Assembly: GCF_022347545.1 (NCBI RefSeq)
Contig: NZ_JAKREW010000008.1
Span: 1-64,000, forward strand
Direction of reading: 5' to 3'
Source: Terribium retamae
GTDB lineage: Bacteria; Pseudomonadota; Alphaproteobacteria; Rhizobiales; Rhizobiaceae
Length of the DNA stretch: 64,000 nt
Shown in pieces: positions 24,811-32,984 of this stretch. Under the pieces are notes generated by a model. The model searched no databases. It was given only the letters and a program-made list of their open reading frames with translations, and was not told where the DNA came from. Position 1 is the stretch's first letter. Every line of letters begins with the position of its first letter. Made by a program: the position numbers and the translations under genes.

Positions 24811-26832
24811 TCACGCCGCGATACGCGGCCGCCCGGCTGCGGTCGCCACGATATGCGCCTCGATGAACATGCGCTGACCTTCGACGACCGATGCCCTGAT
24901 ATCCTGCGCGACGTCGATCTCGGCGGTGTCGGTGCCGGCTTCCCCGGCGCGCAGAGCGGCAAGCTTGCGCACATCGGCTTCCGCCTTTGCCATGGCTTCT
25001 TCTTCCCTGGTGAAGTCGCGCACACCCTCGCCGGACGAAACCCGGAATAGCCCTTCCTTCGGCTGGCTCACCCGCGCCTCCGCCGTCACCCGCACCTGGC
25101 CGACCACCGCCCCCAACGCATTGGCGACGTCGGTGTCGACCGGCACCACGCAATCGTTGCCGACCAGCGGAGACAGCGCTGCATAATGCAGGGGCGCCGA
25201 GGCACCGAGGCCGATCACTGGACGGTCGAGCGCCACGGTCAACCGTGCAATGCCCGGATGAGCGTCGACCGCGCGCTGCACCAGCGCGTGCGCCACGGTT
25301 GCGGCGCCGTCCAGCCCGTCCTCGGAAAAGGCCGTTTCCAGGATGACTTCCGCCGAGAACCGCGTCAGCGCCACCAACACCCGTTCGGAAATCTCCTCGG
25401 GCGAGGCGGCGATCGGCTGGCCGCGCCCATCCTTTCGGCGCGCAAAAAGTTCGGCGCCAAGACGAGCAGCGCCGGCGTGCCAGTTGGCCTGCTTGCCAAG
25501 CGTGTGCGCGGCATCCGAAGGCGTGAAACCGGCAATGTGGACCAGCCCGCGCGCCACCAGCCGGCTCAGCGTCGCGTTCTGCGCGTTGGAGGTGAGCAGT
25601 CGGTCGATCGGCAGCGGCACGCTGCCAATCGCCTCATAGAGCCTGGCCTCCGGCGCGGTCAGCCCCGCCGCCAGCCGCTCCGGCACGCCGGTGCGTACCG
25701 CAAAGCGTCCGTCCATGCGGCCGGGATTGGGTGCGCGCAGTTGCCGTTCCAGTTCGTCGATCACCGCCGCGCCATGGGCAAGGCCGGCCAGCGCCAGAGG
25801 CACGACGCGGCGGGGTCCGAGCTGGATCCTCGGCGTCAGCCCGCCCTCTTCGAGGGTGACCTCTGAATCCCCACCGAGCCCGAAAGTGCGCATGGCAACG
25901 GCTTCCACCATGGTGCGAAAACCGCCGACGGTAGCGCCTTCCGGATCGAGCCGTGGCCGGCCTTTGTCCAGCACGGCAACGTCAGTCGTGGTGCCGCCGA
26001 TGTCGGAGACGACGGCGTCGTCCACCCCGGTCATGTGGCGGGCACCGACCAGAGAGGCGGCCGGCCCGGAAAGAATGGTCTCGATCGGCCGCTGGCGCGC
26101 GAAATCGGCTGAAACCAGCGCGCCGTCGCCGCGCACCACCATCAGCGGCGCCGCGATGCCGCGCTCGACCAGGAACCCTTCGGTGGCCGCGACCAGCCGG
26201 TCGATCATGGCGATCAGCCGTGCATTGAGCAAAGTGGTCAGCGCACGGCGCGGCCCGCCGAGTTTCGACGACAGTTCGTGGCTGCAGGTGACCGGCAGCC
26301 CAGTCACTTCGCGGATCAGCTCGCGTGCGGCGAGCTCATGCGCGGGATTGCGGGTGGCGAAATAAGCGCAGACGGCGAAACCCGAGACCGAACGGCCCAG
26401 CTCCGGCAGCGCCGCTTCCAGTTCGGAAAGGTCAAGAACCGCGGCATTGCCATGCACATCATGCCCGCCGGGGCAGAACAACACCGGGTCCGTGCCGAGC
26501 GCTGTCTTCAGCCCGTCGCGCTCGAGATCGGCCTGTCCGAAGCCGATCATGATCAGGGCAACGCGTCCGCCCTGCCCTTCCACCAATGCGTTGGTGGCGA
26601 GCGTGGTCGACATCGACACCAGCTTGATCGAGGCAGGATCGGCGCCGGTCTGTTCCAGCACCTGCCCGACCGCGCCGGAAATCCCGACAGCAAGGTCGTG
26701 TCGCGTCGTCAGCGACTTCGCCTTGGCGACCACGGTGCCTTTGCTGCCCGTGTCTGACCACAGCACCGCATCGGTATAGGTGCCTCCGGTATCGATACCG
26801 AGGAAGAGCGGAGCGGAGGAAGAAGCAGTCAC
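24811..26832 (-). CDS. Hydantoinase/oxoprolinase family protein (HyuA-like)
   Basis: A protein of about 673 residues. The N-terminal ASKHA nucleotide-binding motif is FLGIDTGGTYTDAVLWS, the second is VVSDIGGTTTDVAVLDKG near residue 275, together defining the ATP-dependent hydantoinase A/oxoprolinase A family, which opens cyclic imide or lactam rings such as hydantoins or 5-oxoproline. No HyuB partner gene is adjacent, so the substrate is open. The start is unclear: GTG 26832 (MTASSSAPLFLGID) is used; TTG 26844 is an alternative, and neither has a clear Shine-Dalgarno. Confidence 0.85.
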   Translation of the reverse strand: MTASSSAPLFLGIDTGGTYTDAVLWSDTGSKGTVVAKAKSLTTRHDLAVGISGAVGQVLEQTGADPASIKLVSMSTTLATNALVEGQGGRVALIMIGFGQADLERDGLKTALGTDPVLFCPGGHDVHGNAAVLDLSELEAALPELGRSVSGFAVCAYFATRNPAHELAARELIREVTGLPVTCSHELSSKLGGPRRALTTLLNARLIAMIDRLVAATEGFLVERGIAAPLMVVRGDGALVSADFARQRPIETILSGPAASLVGARHMTGVDDAVVSDIGGTTTDVAVLDKGRPRLDPEGATVGGFRTMVEAVAMRTFGLGGDSEVTLEEGGLTPRIQLGPRRVVPLALAGLAHGAAVIDELERQLRAPNPGRMDGRFAVRTGVPERLAAGLTAPEARLYEAIGSVPLPIDRLLTSNAQNATLSRLVARGLVHIAGFTPSDAAHTLGKQANWHAGAARLGAELFARRKDGRGQPIAASPEEISERVLVALTRFSAEVILETAFSEDGLDGAATVAHALVQRAVDAHPGIARLTVALDRPVIGLGASAPLHYAALSPLVGNDCVVPVDTDVANALGAVVGQVRVTAEARVSQPKEGLFRVSSGEGVRDFTREEEAMAKAEADVRKLAALRAGEAGTDTAEIDVAQDIRASVVEGQRMFIEAHIVATAAGRPRIAA

Positions 26833-26926
26833 GGCAAGACCCAAGCAAGACAGAAGTTATGCGGGCTTTAGACCATCGCCGCCAACCGGGAAAGGCGGAT
26901 GGGCTGGGCCAGGCATCCCGAAGCGC

Positions 26927-27109
26927 CTAGGCGGGCCCGCGCTTCTGTTGCCCGGCTTCCTCCAGTTCCTGGCTGAGCGGCTTGATCGATGGATCGAGCG
27001 GCTCGGCGGTCTCGGGCACTGCGGTCTTGATCGGAGCCGGGGGCACCCGCTGCCCTGACGCGCAGGCACATAGCAGGACAAACAGAATTACGACGAGGGG
27101 ACGAACCAT
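26927..27109 (-). CDS. Possible small lipoprotein (60 aa)
   Basis: A 60-residue ORF, MVRPLVVILFVLLCACASGQ, with a hydrophobic N-terminus and a lipobox-like LCAC at residues 13-16, so Cys16 could be lipidated. The rest is Pro/Glu-rich (VPETAEPLDPSIKPLSQELE) and ends QQKRGPA. No Shine-Dalgarno is visible before the ATG, which lowers confidence. Small entericidin- or YajI-like lipoproteins are common and often missed. Confidence 0.45.
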   Translation of the reverse strand: MVRPLVVILFVLLCACASGQRVPPAPIKTAVPETAEPLDPSIKPLSQELEEAGQQKRGPA

Positions 27110-27341
27110 GGCGCAGGAGAGTAGGGCGAGGGTAGCGAGACAAGGAAGCACGAGAAAAGCACATTAGGGCAGATCGAGTTGTGCGCTTGAGCGATAATCT
27201 CTTTGAACTGCCCAGCACAAGTGAGAAAATCGGTCTTTTTCCGACACTTATTACAGTTGCGAGCACCGGCCATCACAGTGAATATTGACGACGAAAGTTC
27301 TCTAGGTAAATCTTATCGAAGAAGCTGGCGGGGTAAAATTC

Positions 27342-27950
27342 ATGTCAAAGTTCAAATTCAAATTGAAACTGACGGGGCTTGAGTTGGAGATGGAGGGATC
27401 TCGAGAAGACATTCCTCTGATAACTCAGAATATAGGGAATCAGCTAGCGGGGTTAATGAAACCCGCGGCAGACATTGCCTCCGAAAAAGACGGTACTGAG
27501 CCTTCATTTTCGCCCCTGACAATTAATCATTCGATCGAGGATAAATCCACGAACAAGAGAACAAAGCGCCGGCCTCGCACCAACCCTCAACCACAGGCCA
27601 ACGGCGCCAATATCCCTCCAATCGAATGGACCCACGACCCCTCCAAATTCGGCAATCCTCAGCAAACATGGAGCACCGCCAAAAAATCTATATGGCTGAT
27701 ATATGTTGTTTCTCAAATATCCAAAGTATCACAGCTACAGACCTCTCAAATAGTTGAAATTTTCAACAGAAAGTTTCGTCAATTCAAGACAATCAATACG
27801 AGTAATGTTTCAAGAGACCTCGGAAGGGCCAAAACGAGCAAGCCGTCGCTTGTTGGAGAAGATACGGCTAAATCTCCGACAGAGTGGTTTCTTACAGACG
27901 AAGGGATCAAATCTGCTCAAGAGTCTATCAGCGAAGGCACCAAGATTTAA
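27342..27950 (+). CDS. Unknown protein with C-terminal winged helix; first gene of AT-rich islet
   Basis: I do not recognise this 202-residue protein. An N-terminal strand-rich motif (FKFKLKLTGLELEMEGSRED, residues 4-23) with an acidic turn is followed by a disordered, basic linker with KRTKRRPR (72-79), then a helical C-terminal part (about 115-195) that looks like a winged helix: WLIYVVSQISKVSQLQ, IVEIFNRKFRQFKTINTSNV, SRDLGRAK, then the wing WFLTDEGIKSAQ. The region is clearly richer in A+T than the flanks and uses rare ATA and AGA codons, signs of transfer. Its TAA overlaps the next gene's ATG (TAATG), so both are probably made together. Start ATG 27342 has only a weak GGGG upstream. Confidence 0.75.
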   Translation: MSKFKFKLKLTGLELEMEGSREDIPLITQNIGNQLAGLMKPAADIASEKDGTEPSFSPLTINHSIEDKSTNKRTKRRPRTNPQPQANGANIPPIEWTHDPSKFGNPQQTWSTAKKSIWLIYVVSQISKVSQLQTSQIVEIFNRKFRQFKTINTSNVSRDLGRAKTSKPSLVGEDTAKSPTEWFLTDEGIKSAQESISEGTKI

Positions 27951-28732
27951 TGGGACTCATTGAGCGGTCGACCATAATATCCGCCCTTAGCCCTCCAGGA
28001 GACCATCTACTCGTCACCCAGTTGATAGATGAGTTTATCTCGGCCGAAAAACGCTTCATCCAAAGAGATTGGGAGCCTGCAGAACTCGACGGAGGGCAAT
28101 TCTCCGAAATTGCCGCTAGAATTTACTATCACATAGACAGCGGAACTTGTAATCGTTCGAAATCTTTCGATGATTGCCTGAAATATATTGAAAACGACAC
28201 CTTATCTCACGCGATCCAACCGCGTCACGATGCTCTGCACATTTCTAAAGTTCTTAGGACCGTATATAAATTTCGGAGCCAGCGTGGGGCAGTCCATGTA
28301 TCCCCCAATTACAGCCCGAACCACATGGATGCTCGACTAATCATCGAGAACATTCGCTGGGTCATGAACGAGACACTTCGAATATTTTGGAATGGAGATC
28401 GAGAAACCGTCGCGGTTGCCATTAGGGAATTGCTGCAATTTGATGTTCCCTGTGTCGGCAGATTTGAAGACGACATTCTAGTTCAACGCACAGACCTTAT
28501 TCCAGAAGAGGAGATCCTTGTACTTCTTCATTATGCCGGCGAAGCTGGCTTCAGCCGAAAACTGATTGGTCGCTTTGCGCGACTTTCTGCTCCGACCGTC
28601 ACTCGCACGCTACAGAAACTCTGCTCCCCTTCCATGCGGCAGGTTATCCTACTCAGTAGCGGGTGCTATCGACTAACGGACCTGGGCTCAAAGAGGATTC
28701 GCGACGAACTTTCCGCTAAGCTCATAATATAG
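27950..28732 (+). CDS. HEPN-like protein with C-terminal winged helix; second gene of AT-rich islet
   Basis: A 260-residue protein without a firm name. Residues about 85-145 form helices around FRSQRGAVHVSPNYSPNH; R109-x6-H116 fits the R-x4-6-H motif of HEPN ribonucleases and abortive-infection C-terminal domains, and the following MDARLIIENIRWVMNETLRIF helix also fits. Residues about 200-255 (FSRKLIGRFARLSAPTVTRT, then YRLTDLGSKRIRDEL) look like a winged helix. It overlaps the upstream gene by one base. AT-rich, foreign composition, inserted between a hydantoinase gene and lepA. A phage-defence or toxin-like role is plausible but not shown; the motif could be fortuitous. Confidence 0.7.
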   Translation: MGLIERSTIISALSPPGDHLLVTQLIDEFISAEKRFIQRDWEPAELDGGQFSEIAARIYYHIDSGTCNRSKSFDDCLKYIENDTLSHAIQPRHDALHISKVLRTVYKFRSQRGAVHVSPNYSPNHMDARLIIENIRWVMNETLRIFWNGDRETVAVAIRELLQFDVPCVGRFEDDILVQRTDLIPEEEILVLLHYAGEAGFSRKLIGRFARLSAPTVTRTLQKLCSPSMRQVILLSSGCYRLTDLGSKRIRDELSAKLII

Positions 28733-28790
28733 AAGTATAATATAAGATCTTTCTGTCTCCAGTCCGATTAGCTTCGCAGATGCAGCGTCC

Positions 28791-30599
28791 TTAATTATCC
28801 CCCATCTTCAGCGCTTCGATGAAGGCCGCCTGCGGGATGTCGACCTTGCCGAATTGGCGCATGCGCTTCTTGCCTTCCTTCTGCTTGTCCAGCAGCTTGC
28901 GCTTGCGGGTGACGTCGCCGCCGTAGCACTTGGCGGTCACGTCCTTGCGCAGGGCAGAGATCGTCTCGCGCGCGATCACCTTGCCGCCGATGGCGGCCTG
29001 GATCGGGATCTTGAACATGTGCTGCGGGATCAGCTCCTTCAGCTTCTCGCACATGGCGCGGCCGCGCTTTTCGGCCGCCGTGCGGTGCACCAGCATGGAG
29101 AGCGCGTCGACCGGCTCCTCATTGACCAGGATCGACATCTTGACGAGGTCGCCTTCCTTGTAGTCGGTCAGATGATAGTCGAAGGAAGCGTAACCCTTGG
29201 AGATCGACTTCAGCCGGTCGTAGAAATCGAACACGACTTCGTTGAGCGGCAGTTCGTAGACCAGCATGGCGCGCTTGCCGACATAGGACAGGTCGACCTG
29301 GATACCGCGCCGGTCCTGGCACAGTTTCAGGATGCCGCCAAGATAGTCGTCCGGTGTCAGGATGGTGGCGCGGATCCACGGCTCCTCGATATGGGCGATC
29401 TTGACCACGTCGGGCATGTCGGCCGGATTGTGCAGTTCCTTCACCGTGCCGTCGGTCAGTGCCATGCGGTAGACGACTGAGGGGGCCGTGGCGATGAGGT
29501 CGAGGTCGAACTCGCGTTCCAGGCGCTCCTGGATGATCTCCAGGTGCAAAAGGCCGAGGAAGCCGCAGCGGAAGCCGAAGCCGAGCGCCGCTGACGTTTC
29601 CATTTCATAAGAGAAAGACGCGTCGTTGAGGCGCAGCTTGCCGACGGCGGCGCGCAGGTCCTCGAAATCGGCGGCATCGACCGGGAACAGGCCGCAGAAC
29701 ACCACCGGCTGTGCCGGCTTGAAGCCCGGCAGGGGGTCCGTGGTCGGGCGACGGTCTTCGGTGATGGTGTCGCCGACGCGGGTGTCGGCCACTTCCTTGA
29801 TCGAGGCGGTGATGAAGCCGAACTCGCCCGGGCCGATCTCGTCGGCCTGGATCATCTTCGGCGTGAAGAAGCCGGTGCGCTCGACCGGATATTTGGCGCC
29901 AGTGCCCATCATGCGGATGGTCTGGCCCTTCTTGAGCACGCCGTCGATGACGCGCACCAGCACGATGACGCCGAGATAGGCATCGTACCAGCTGTCGACC
30001 AGCATGGCCTTCAGCGGCTTGGCGGCATCGCCCTCGCGTGGCGGCGGCAGCTTGGTGACGATCGCTTCCAGCACTTCCTCGATGCCGATGCCGGTCTTGG
30101 CCGAAATCAGCACGGCGTCGGAGGCGTCGAGGCCGATCACTTCCTCGACCTGCTCCTTGATGCGGTCCGGCTCGGCTGCCGGCAGGTCGATCTTGTTCAG
30201 CACCACGACGATCTCGTGATTGGCATCGATGGCCTGGTAGACATTGGCCAACGTCTGCGCCTCGACGCCCTGCGAGGCGTCGACCACCAGCAGCGACCCT
30301 TCGCAGGCGCGCAGCGACCGCGACACCTCATAGGCGAAGTCGACATGGCCGGGCGTGTCGATGAGGTTGAGGACGTAGTCCTTGCCGTCCTTGGCCTTGT
30401 AGTTCAGGCGCACGGTCTGCGCCTTGATGGTGATGCCGCGCTCGCGCTCGATGTCCATGTTGTCGAGCACCTGCTCGGTCATCTCGCGCGCCTCCAGCGC
30501 GCCGGTCATCTGGATGAGGCGGTCGGCCAGCGTCGATTTGCCGTGGTCGATATGGGCCACGATCGAAAAATTGCGGATGTTGGAAATGGGCGTGCTCAT
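28791..30599 (-). CDS. lepA: Elongation factor 4 (LepA)
   Basis: A 602-residue translational GTPase with G1 [14 protein letters not shown]3 [15 protein letters not shown] and G4 NKIDLP, domain II, EF-G-like domains III and V, and the LepA-specific C-terminal domain ([20 protein letters not shown]). LepA back-translocates or remodels stalled ribosomes and helps initiation and assembly. ATG 30599 ([14 protein letters not shown]). It stands alone here; the AT-rich islet lies just downstream of its 3' end. Confidence 0.97.
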
Positions 30600-30747
30600 G
30601 GCGCGGCCTTTATCAGGGGCGGAATGCTCCGGCAAGCGGTGGCACGGCTGGGTTTGAGCGGAACCGTTAAATCTTTAGAGGTTGCGTTAGCCGGGCGTTG
30701 GAAAGCTGGATGTTATCGGTACTGCGTCGTTGCCCCAGGAAACAACC

Positions 30748-32735: not shown

Positions 32736-32984
32736 ATGAACCGTCCAATCAGCCTCAAAGCGCTGGCTTTCGCCCTTACCGCGACCGCTTTTGCTGCCAC
32801 TGGTGCTTATGCCGAAGACGCCATGAAGCCGGCTGACGCGATGAAACCCGTCGAAGCCATGAAGCCTGCGGACGCCATGAAACCCGCCGATGCCATGAAG
32901 CCCGCCGATGCCATGAAGCCCGCCGACGCCATGAAGCCCGCCGACGCCATGAAACCCGCCGATGCGATGAAACCTGCGCAGTAA
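32736..32984 (+). CDS. Exported methionine-rich repeat protein (AMKPAD repeats)
   Basis: An 82-residue protein: signal peptide 1-26 (ending FAATGAYA), then a mature part made almost only of nine hexapeptide repeats of the form D/E-A-M-K-P-A/V, giving nine Met, nine Lys and nine Pro in 56 residues and no other fold. It resembles the MXKDX-repeat family and MrpX of Azospira, a periplasmic methionine-rich peptide that scavenges hypochlorite and is recycled by a methionine sulfoxide reductase. AAGGAGAG precedes ATG 32736. An exported MsrA follows 103 bases later, which supports a sacrificial-methionine role; that role here is inference. Confidence 0.88.
   Translation: MNRPISLKALAFALTATAFAATGAYAEDAMKPADAMKPVEAMKPADAMKPADAMKPADAMKPADAMKPADAMKPADAMKPAQ
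32817..32978 (+). repeat. Nine 18-bp coding repeats of the Met-rich protein
   Basis: Nine tandem units, consensus GACGCCATGAAGCCCGCC. Units 4-8 are nearly identical in DNA, so recent copy-number change by slippage or recombination is likely. The repeat also leaves long open frames on the other strand and frames, which are artefacts. Confidence 0.95.

Follow-up and report, generated by a model that had tools for sequence, protein, structure and literature searches.

In a 64,000-nucleotide stretch of Terribium retamae DNA (contig NZ_JAKREW010000008.1, positions 1 to 64,000; hereafter the window), two overlapping genes, here termed A and B, are best read as a so far uncharacterised HEPN-type module. 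The B protein is very likely a HEPN RNase, and the pair probably constitutes a chromosomal conflict module of two genes, directed most likely against phage via abortive infection, in which this RNase is gated by a DNA-binding partner, A. The two genes and their predicted domains, with AlphaFold2 (AF2) models scored by the predicted local distance difference test (pLDDT), are located as follows.

27342..27950, plus strand: gene A, an open reading frame (ORF) of 202 aa with its TAA stop at 27948-27950; proposed DNA-binding partner or regulator, from relatives, AF2 model and winged-helix matches
27342..27485, plus strand: N-terminal module, A residues 1-48, in pLDDT blocks of 41-80; alignable to sister-subfamily partners
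27555..27578, plus strand: basic linker KRTKRRPR, A residues 72-79, with pLDDT of about 53-63 around it
27660..27947, plus strand: winged helix, A residues 107-202, from AF2 model and structural matches
27950..28732, plus strand: gene B, an ORF of 260 aa with its ATG at 27950; proposed RNase effector, HEPN plus C-terminal winged helix
27980..28396, plus strand: HEPN domain, B residues 11-149, with helices 19-37, 49-64, 92-112 and 125-146 and an insert at 65-91
28106..28120, plus strand: E53-x3-R57, the HEPN acidic Ex3[KR] element on helix 2, from alignment conservation
28274..28297, plus strand: R109-S-Q-R-G-A-V-H116, the HEPN Rx4-6H motif, from alignment conservation and AF2 model
28493..28729, plus strand: MarR-like winged helix, B residues 182-260, from structural matches and a weak Pfam MarR match below cut-off

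The HEPN survey (PMC3710099) lists as hallmarks an Rx4-6H motif at the end of helix 3, a polar residue after the R, an acidic Ex3[KR] element on helix 2 and an insert between helices 2 and 3. B carries the motif, at the end of helix 3, together with the helix 2/3 insert, the acidic helix-2 residue and a matching fold. An earlier, sequence-only reading of this DNA had noted that R109-x6-H116 fits the HEPN motif; the residues are as it gave them, and R109, R112, H116 and the helix-2 E53 are invariant in all 266 aligned relatives of B, 142 from its own subfamily and 124 from a sister subfamily whose B proteins are 20-27% identical to that of the window. Residue 57 is R throughout the own subfamily (142/142) but T or S in most sister-subfamily proteins, and the polar residue 110, directly after R109, is S in 140/142 and N in 120/124, respectively. 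At E 0.01, protein searches matched 1,159 clusters for window B, 3,990 for sister B and 58 for A, counted at 90% identity, with possible overlap between the B and sister sets. The 240 listed relatives of B (best 120 of 1,159 and best 120 of 3,990) were not selected by motif, but they are the closest relatives. Because YKFRSQRG is one of the two patterns that retrieved loci L003-L023, these do not count as independent evidence for the motif.

In the AF2 model of B (pLDDT 85.7, predicted template modelling score 0.62), R109 closes helix 3, residues 113-116 have pLDDT below 50, and a further helix, 73-81, lies within the insert. When the full-length model was searched, just two of its 50 best structural matches spanned the N-terminal half, and both are HEPN domains; the nearest solved folds to this half are AF0298/2hsb and sacsin/3o10, of which AF0298 typically lacks the canonical H (PMC3710099). 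The fold assignment rests on this coverage, since none of the Foldseek top 50, which are winged-helix or patchy matches, has an E-value of 0.001 or better. The comparison of B with HEPN folds that the sequence-only reading had proposed as a check thus puts R109 at the close of helix 3, in a half spanned, among the 50 best matches, by HEPN domains alone, and so bears out that reading. Searching PDB sequences with B gave nothing significant (best E 0.072), and no named HEPN family was matched at profile level, either in Pfam scans or by hhalign against Abi_C. This is no defining failure, because HEPN sequences are poorly conserved outside the motifs (PMC3710099). The metal-independent RNase site of B (E53, R109, H116) is predicted to be intact and fused to the MarR-like winged helix, and from this intact site we infer that B cuts RNA.

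The same domain content bears on a rather improbable alternative, a transcription-regulatory or RNA-binding cassette in which a non-catalytic HEPN domain, as proposed for MtlR, and two winged helices would control host or element genes. Two winged helices are indeed present and a non-catalytic role is assumed for some HEPN domains, but in the survey such a role goes with motif loss (PMC3710099), and here R109, H116 and E53 are retained in 266/266 proteins.

For A, the AF2 model has a mean pLDDT of 80.6, with the N-terminal half poorly modelled. Its predicted architecture consists of the N-terminal module, a basic disordered linker and the C-terminal winged helix, from which DNA binding is proposed. 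The sequence-only reading had both proteins ending in what looked like winged helices, in agreement with the AF2 models and structural matches for A and B alike, and the basic linker KRTKRRPR that it saw in A could be placed at residues 72-79. In a single hhalign comparison, the N-terminal module aligned with the sister-subfamily partners over 38 columns (probability 68.8%, E 4.5e-5). Between subfamilies, A aligns only through this module and not through the winged helix, while the HEPN core of B is fixed.

The stop codon of A and the start codon of B share a TAATG overlap, exactly at the coordinates that the sequence-only reading had given. That reading had also described an AT-rich pocket with rare codons, and all three measures of composition are outlying. 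The guanine-plus-cytosine content (GC) of the pair is 0.473 against a window mean of 0.619, and the 26 of 1,261 overlapping 1-kb segments with GC below 0.52 all start at 26801-28051, on the A-B islet, which is the sole strongly AT-rich pocket of the window. GC at third codon positions is 0.490 for A and 0.492 for B, compared with a mean of 0.761 and a minimum of 0.615 for the 34 other window genes. Relative to those genes, the codon-adaptation index is 0.38 for A and 0.39 for B, against a minimum of 0.53, and the codon usage of both lies outside the range of the other window genes. Promoter-like sites are at chance level and on the minus strand only, terminator-like sites number 4 against 1.7 expected, and a single 9-nt imperfect palindrome lies upstream of A.

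Unusual composition is also the one point in favour of an artefact, that is, chance ORFs in an AT-rich stretch, a possibility with next to no probability left. It is ruled out by the 1,159 matches to B and 58 to A, among which the listed ones have full-length, conserved reading frames, and by non-synonymous divergence (dN) far below synonymous divergence (dS). Two locus pairs were compared. In L003/L004, dN and dS are 0.014 and 0.314 for B and 0.017 and 0.226 for A; in L064/L065, they are 0.138 and 1.509 for B (225 codons). The A-B pair is thus under purifying selection.

The sequence-only reading had also asked whether the two genes recur together, and they do. Linkage was examined in 29 copies of B (the window, L002, L003-L023, L063-L065, L070, L136 and L137), of which L011 was left out as it starts at a contig edge. 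A co-directional gene lies immediately upstream in 27 of the 28 testable copies, the exception being a Natronomonas pharaonis plasmid copy (L070); in L014 and L015 this upstream gene is divided, and in L022 part of it is masked. When an A profile that included the window protein was run against 25 upstream proteins, 14 of them, counting that of the window, matched strongly and that of L021 weakly, so that clear homologues of A account for 14/25. The remaining upstream proteins, assigned from position and build only, may have taken the place of A without being homologous to it. Where measured, gaps between the two genes range from -14 to +26 nt, except in L015 (37) and L017 (162), and in Mesorhizobium sp. 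XAP10 the relatives of A and B carry consecutive locus tags (P3C58_20595, P3C58_20600). Three-gene versions with two genes ahead of B (L136:488-2244 and L137:61-2256) suggest an expandable partner set.

By record titles, 21 genome loci come from alpha- and betaproteobacteria, Bacteroidetes, Acidobacteria, Phycisphaerae, Ignavibacteria, Nitrospinaceae, a Nostoc bin, a Saccharibacteria bin and others. At close range the pair is sparse, present in 4/146 genus genomes and 2/297 family genomes; profile searches found it in at least 3/397 order genomes and at least 1/398 phylum genomes (its own only), which are lower bounds because at most six candidates per genome were scored. A tree of 26 B proteins requires 6 phylum changes, the minimum possible for all groups together, and therefore gives no sign of between-phylum transfer; transfer itself is indicated by the patchiness, the composition and the near-empty site described below. 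No relative of B was found in plasmids, phages or viral contigs, the last searched for close relatives only, and the sister protein gave one distant Natronomonas plasmid match and no phage match. On the N. pharaonis plasmid PL131 (L070:5935-6807), a distant B with an RNNRDSVH motif has no upstream partner and is separated by one gene from an ISH6-like transposase; it is the one haloarchaeal relative noted beside the bacterial ones. By eye, the acidobacterial pair (L012:5305-7871) is flanked on both sides by similar peroxiredoxin-like ORFs, which would fit an insertion that duplicated the adjacent gene.

The islet and its neighbour define the site in the window.

27113..28792, no strand: AT-rich inserted islet; homology to the G301 site (L054) ends at 27112 and resumes at 28793
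28791..30635, minus strand: lepA (EF-4), ORF named by eye; its 3′ end marks the slot

Because homology to the closest congener, G301 (LepA 98.8% identical), ends and resumes at these points, the foreign segment is placed at approximately 27113-28792. G301 has about 105 bp between the same flanks (L054 7863-7968), and the right boundary at 28793 coincides with the lepA stop codon. By this comparison, the A-B pair is cleanly inserted where lepA ends. The longest repeat common to both flanks is an 8-bp inverted repeat, likely due to chance. The window contains no tRNA, the insertion site has no Rfam match nearby, and no recombinase was noticed by eye among the ORFs listed for 22-34 kb. In the second closest congener, G346, this place is taken by another AT-rich islet, about 2.6 kb long (L055:2095-4278), in which a 307-aa protein is accompanied by several very short ORFs resembling helix-turn-helix proteins. 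The gene names lepA, groEL, thiC, hydantoinase and malate synthase are putative assignments, in part by eye.

LepA was detected in 59 of 61 genus genomes searched, and the downstream regions of 56 congeners (L054-L061 and L088-L135, with that of L111 only about 1 kb long) were compared, excluding the own genome and two partial matches. At the lepA slot, the only site examined, 41 of the 56 have an AT-rich islet that measures 1 kb or more and starts no farther than about 500 bp from lepA. The cargo differs between genomes, as the 112 ORFs of these 41 islets fall in 95 clusters. From 80 cluster representatives of at least 100 aa, 66 islet proteins were chosen by eye, and these hit 314 PADLOC models at 1e-5, compared with 28 hit by the 56 other predicted genes of the window, whose best matches are generic (mad3, Csa3, AriA, RmrA); as the models are redundant (36 are matched by one methyltransferase), 314 versus 28 is a rough contrast and not a gene count. 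At 1e-10, 11 of 20 islet proteins match and 9 do not, a biased rate, the 20 having been picked by eye from the 66, one each from 20 of the 41 islets. The 11 are DRT UG13a, Drt6/Drt4, PDC-S28, Hachiman HamB, LmuB, PD-Lambda-5 A, a ThsA-like SIR2, a SIR2 of a pAgo-associated model, Vsr, a type II methyltransferase and a DpdB-like protein, so that at least 11 of the islets have a protein known to PADLOC. Pfam finds SIR2_2 in 5/66 islet proteins, along with HamA, Vsr, Fic, SocA_Panacea, GmrSD_N, nSTAND_NTPase5 and two HEPN families, Hypoth_Ymh and HEPN_MAE_28990; Ymh is classed as HEPN in PMC3710099. From these matches, the 3′ end of lepA appears to be a chromosomal hotspot of short AT-rich islets in the host genus, many with defence genes. 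In the slot of G343 (L056:6216-7562), a HigB-HigA-like toxin-antitoxin with a SecB-like chaperone was recognised by eye.

Of 26 loci tested, four, namely the window and L002-L004, have the pair itself next to the lepA 3′ end. In L002, which belongs to the sister subfamily and whose protein is identical to one from Aureimonas mangrovi, it is convergent with lepA as in the window, and in the two Rhodopseudomonas genomes (L003, L004) it is in tandem with lepA. Elsewhere it lies beside groEL (L005 and L023; farther away in L017) or beside thiC (L008, L009). Defence-like neighbours, judged by eye only, are a SIR2 (L011), an AbiE-type nucleotidyltransferase (L014), a DNA methylase (L017) and an MNT/HEPN (L022); the remaining copies of B have none.

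The defence-type role that the sequence-only reading had suspected is strengthened by the finding that the insertion slot carries known defence genes in relatives, and we hold such a role for the pair to be likely. The coupled two-gene layout and the lone islets adjoining housekeeping genes would also suit a selfish toxin-antitoxin addiction unit that stabilises chromosomal segments and brings no anti-phage benefit. This is unlikely, given that the slot is common to defence systems and that the pair is absent from the plasmids searched, save the one distant, partnerless copy.

For the anti-phage conflict module that we favour, A and B would associate in a complex on DNA, with A keeping the HEPN RNase inactive, probably via its N-terminal module. 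Infection would perturb A or its contact with DNA, and the freed B would then cleave RNA, so that growth stops before phage release. The restraint of B by A is proposed from the coupling and order of the genes, and infection as the trigger from the lepA hotspot; RNase activity, toxicity, gating and phage resistance are accordingly stated as predictions. The odds are about even that A inhibits B in the manner of an antitoxin and is not a sensor on which the activation of B depends.

Should A instead be a sensor or activator, B alone would be harmless, and A would recognise a phage component or foreign DNA and then recruit and activate the HEPN RNase. We consider this doubtful, though more probable than an addiction unit. 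A diverges faster than B, being 32-45% identical to the window protein where B is 62-68% identical (L005, L006, L007, L009, L010, L012, L013 and L016); across subfamilies A aligns in the N-terminal module alone while the HEPN core of B stays fixed; and two relatives have two upstream genes. However, a fast-evolving antitoxin would fit this divergence too. Type II toxin-antitoxin modules usually have the regulator upstream of the toxin, and the regulator-first, tight coupling seen here is that usual order. The pair further resembles these modules in its compact operon with an upstream co-directional gene (27/28 loci).

Among known systems, the closest likeness in kind is to the HEPN superfamily RNases, in helix arrangement, Rx4-6H at the end of helix 3, polar residue, Ex3[KR] and insert (PMC3710099). 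B-type proteins differ in their fusion to a winged helix combined with a winged-helix partner, a combination not met in the passages of that survey that were consulted. HEPN-wHTH (winged helix-turn-helix) fusions in conflict contexts, the EC042_2821 and MTES_1575 types, are described there (PMC3710099), but those bear REase, Zn-ribbon, helicase or other domains, none of which Pfam detected in B. HEPN/MNT (HepT-MntA) is likewise a two-gene module with a HEPN member; here, by contrast, the C-terminal half of A is a predicted winged helix, no nucleotidyltransferase was found and A has no Pfam match. Csm6 and Csx1 have a winged-helix part. They also carry HEPN within a multidomain protein (PMC3710099); in B the HEPN domain is N-terminal and Pfam scans gave no CARF/Rossmann match, and no CRISPR genes were noticed by eye among the ORFs listed for 22-34 kb. 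Abi_C (PF14355) shows, by eye, LRN-x5-H with a six-residue spacer in several of the members retrieved, but its domain is at the C-terminal end of those proteins, in contrast to the N-terminal HEPN domain of B. Abi_C was rejected as the parent family of B, as there is no Pfam match and hhalign with 14 of 17 Abi_C loci (L076, L086 and L087 excluded) gives no support, scoring 18.5 against 15.0 for a reversed profile and 17.9 for the unrelated A profile.

Neither A nor B has a family above threshold in Pfam, PADLOC, NCBIfam or PHROGs, and PADLOC-DB 2.0.0 holds none at E up to 10. The sequence-only reading knew of no described system with such a pair, and these four libraries contain none; Pfam and PADLOC are also without a description of the sister subfamily. 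Among the open-licence papers that literature searches listed, neither the A-B pair nor a lepA defence hotspot is named in the titles or abstract openings.

HEPN RNases are central effectors of immunity, yet the B-type HEPN-like family is widespread and lies outside Pfam and PADLOC. There is about an even chance that it represents a large uncatalogued bacterial immune system in which one or two winged-helix adaptors, with exchangeable DNA-binding domains, gate a winged-helix-bearing HEPN RNase and so convert occupancy or disturbance of DNA into destruction of RNA; in the host genus, it would be one of many interchangeable cargoes of the lepA hotspot. As the module is small (two genes, 1.4 kb) and has clear candidate catalytic residues and its own partner, the choice between toxin and sensor is directly testable. 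The lepA slot could also offer a cheap route to further systems, since islets in other genomes mix uncharacterised genes with known defence genes. Elsewhere in the window, a short ORF at 32736-32984 consists mostly of MKPADA-type repeats.
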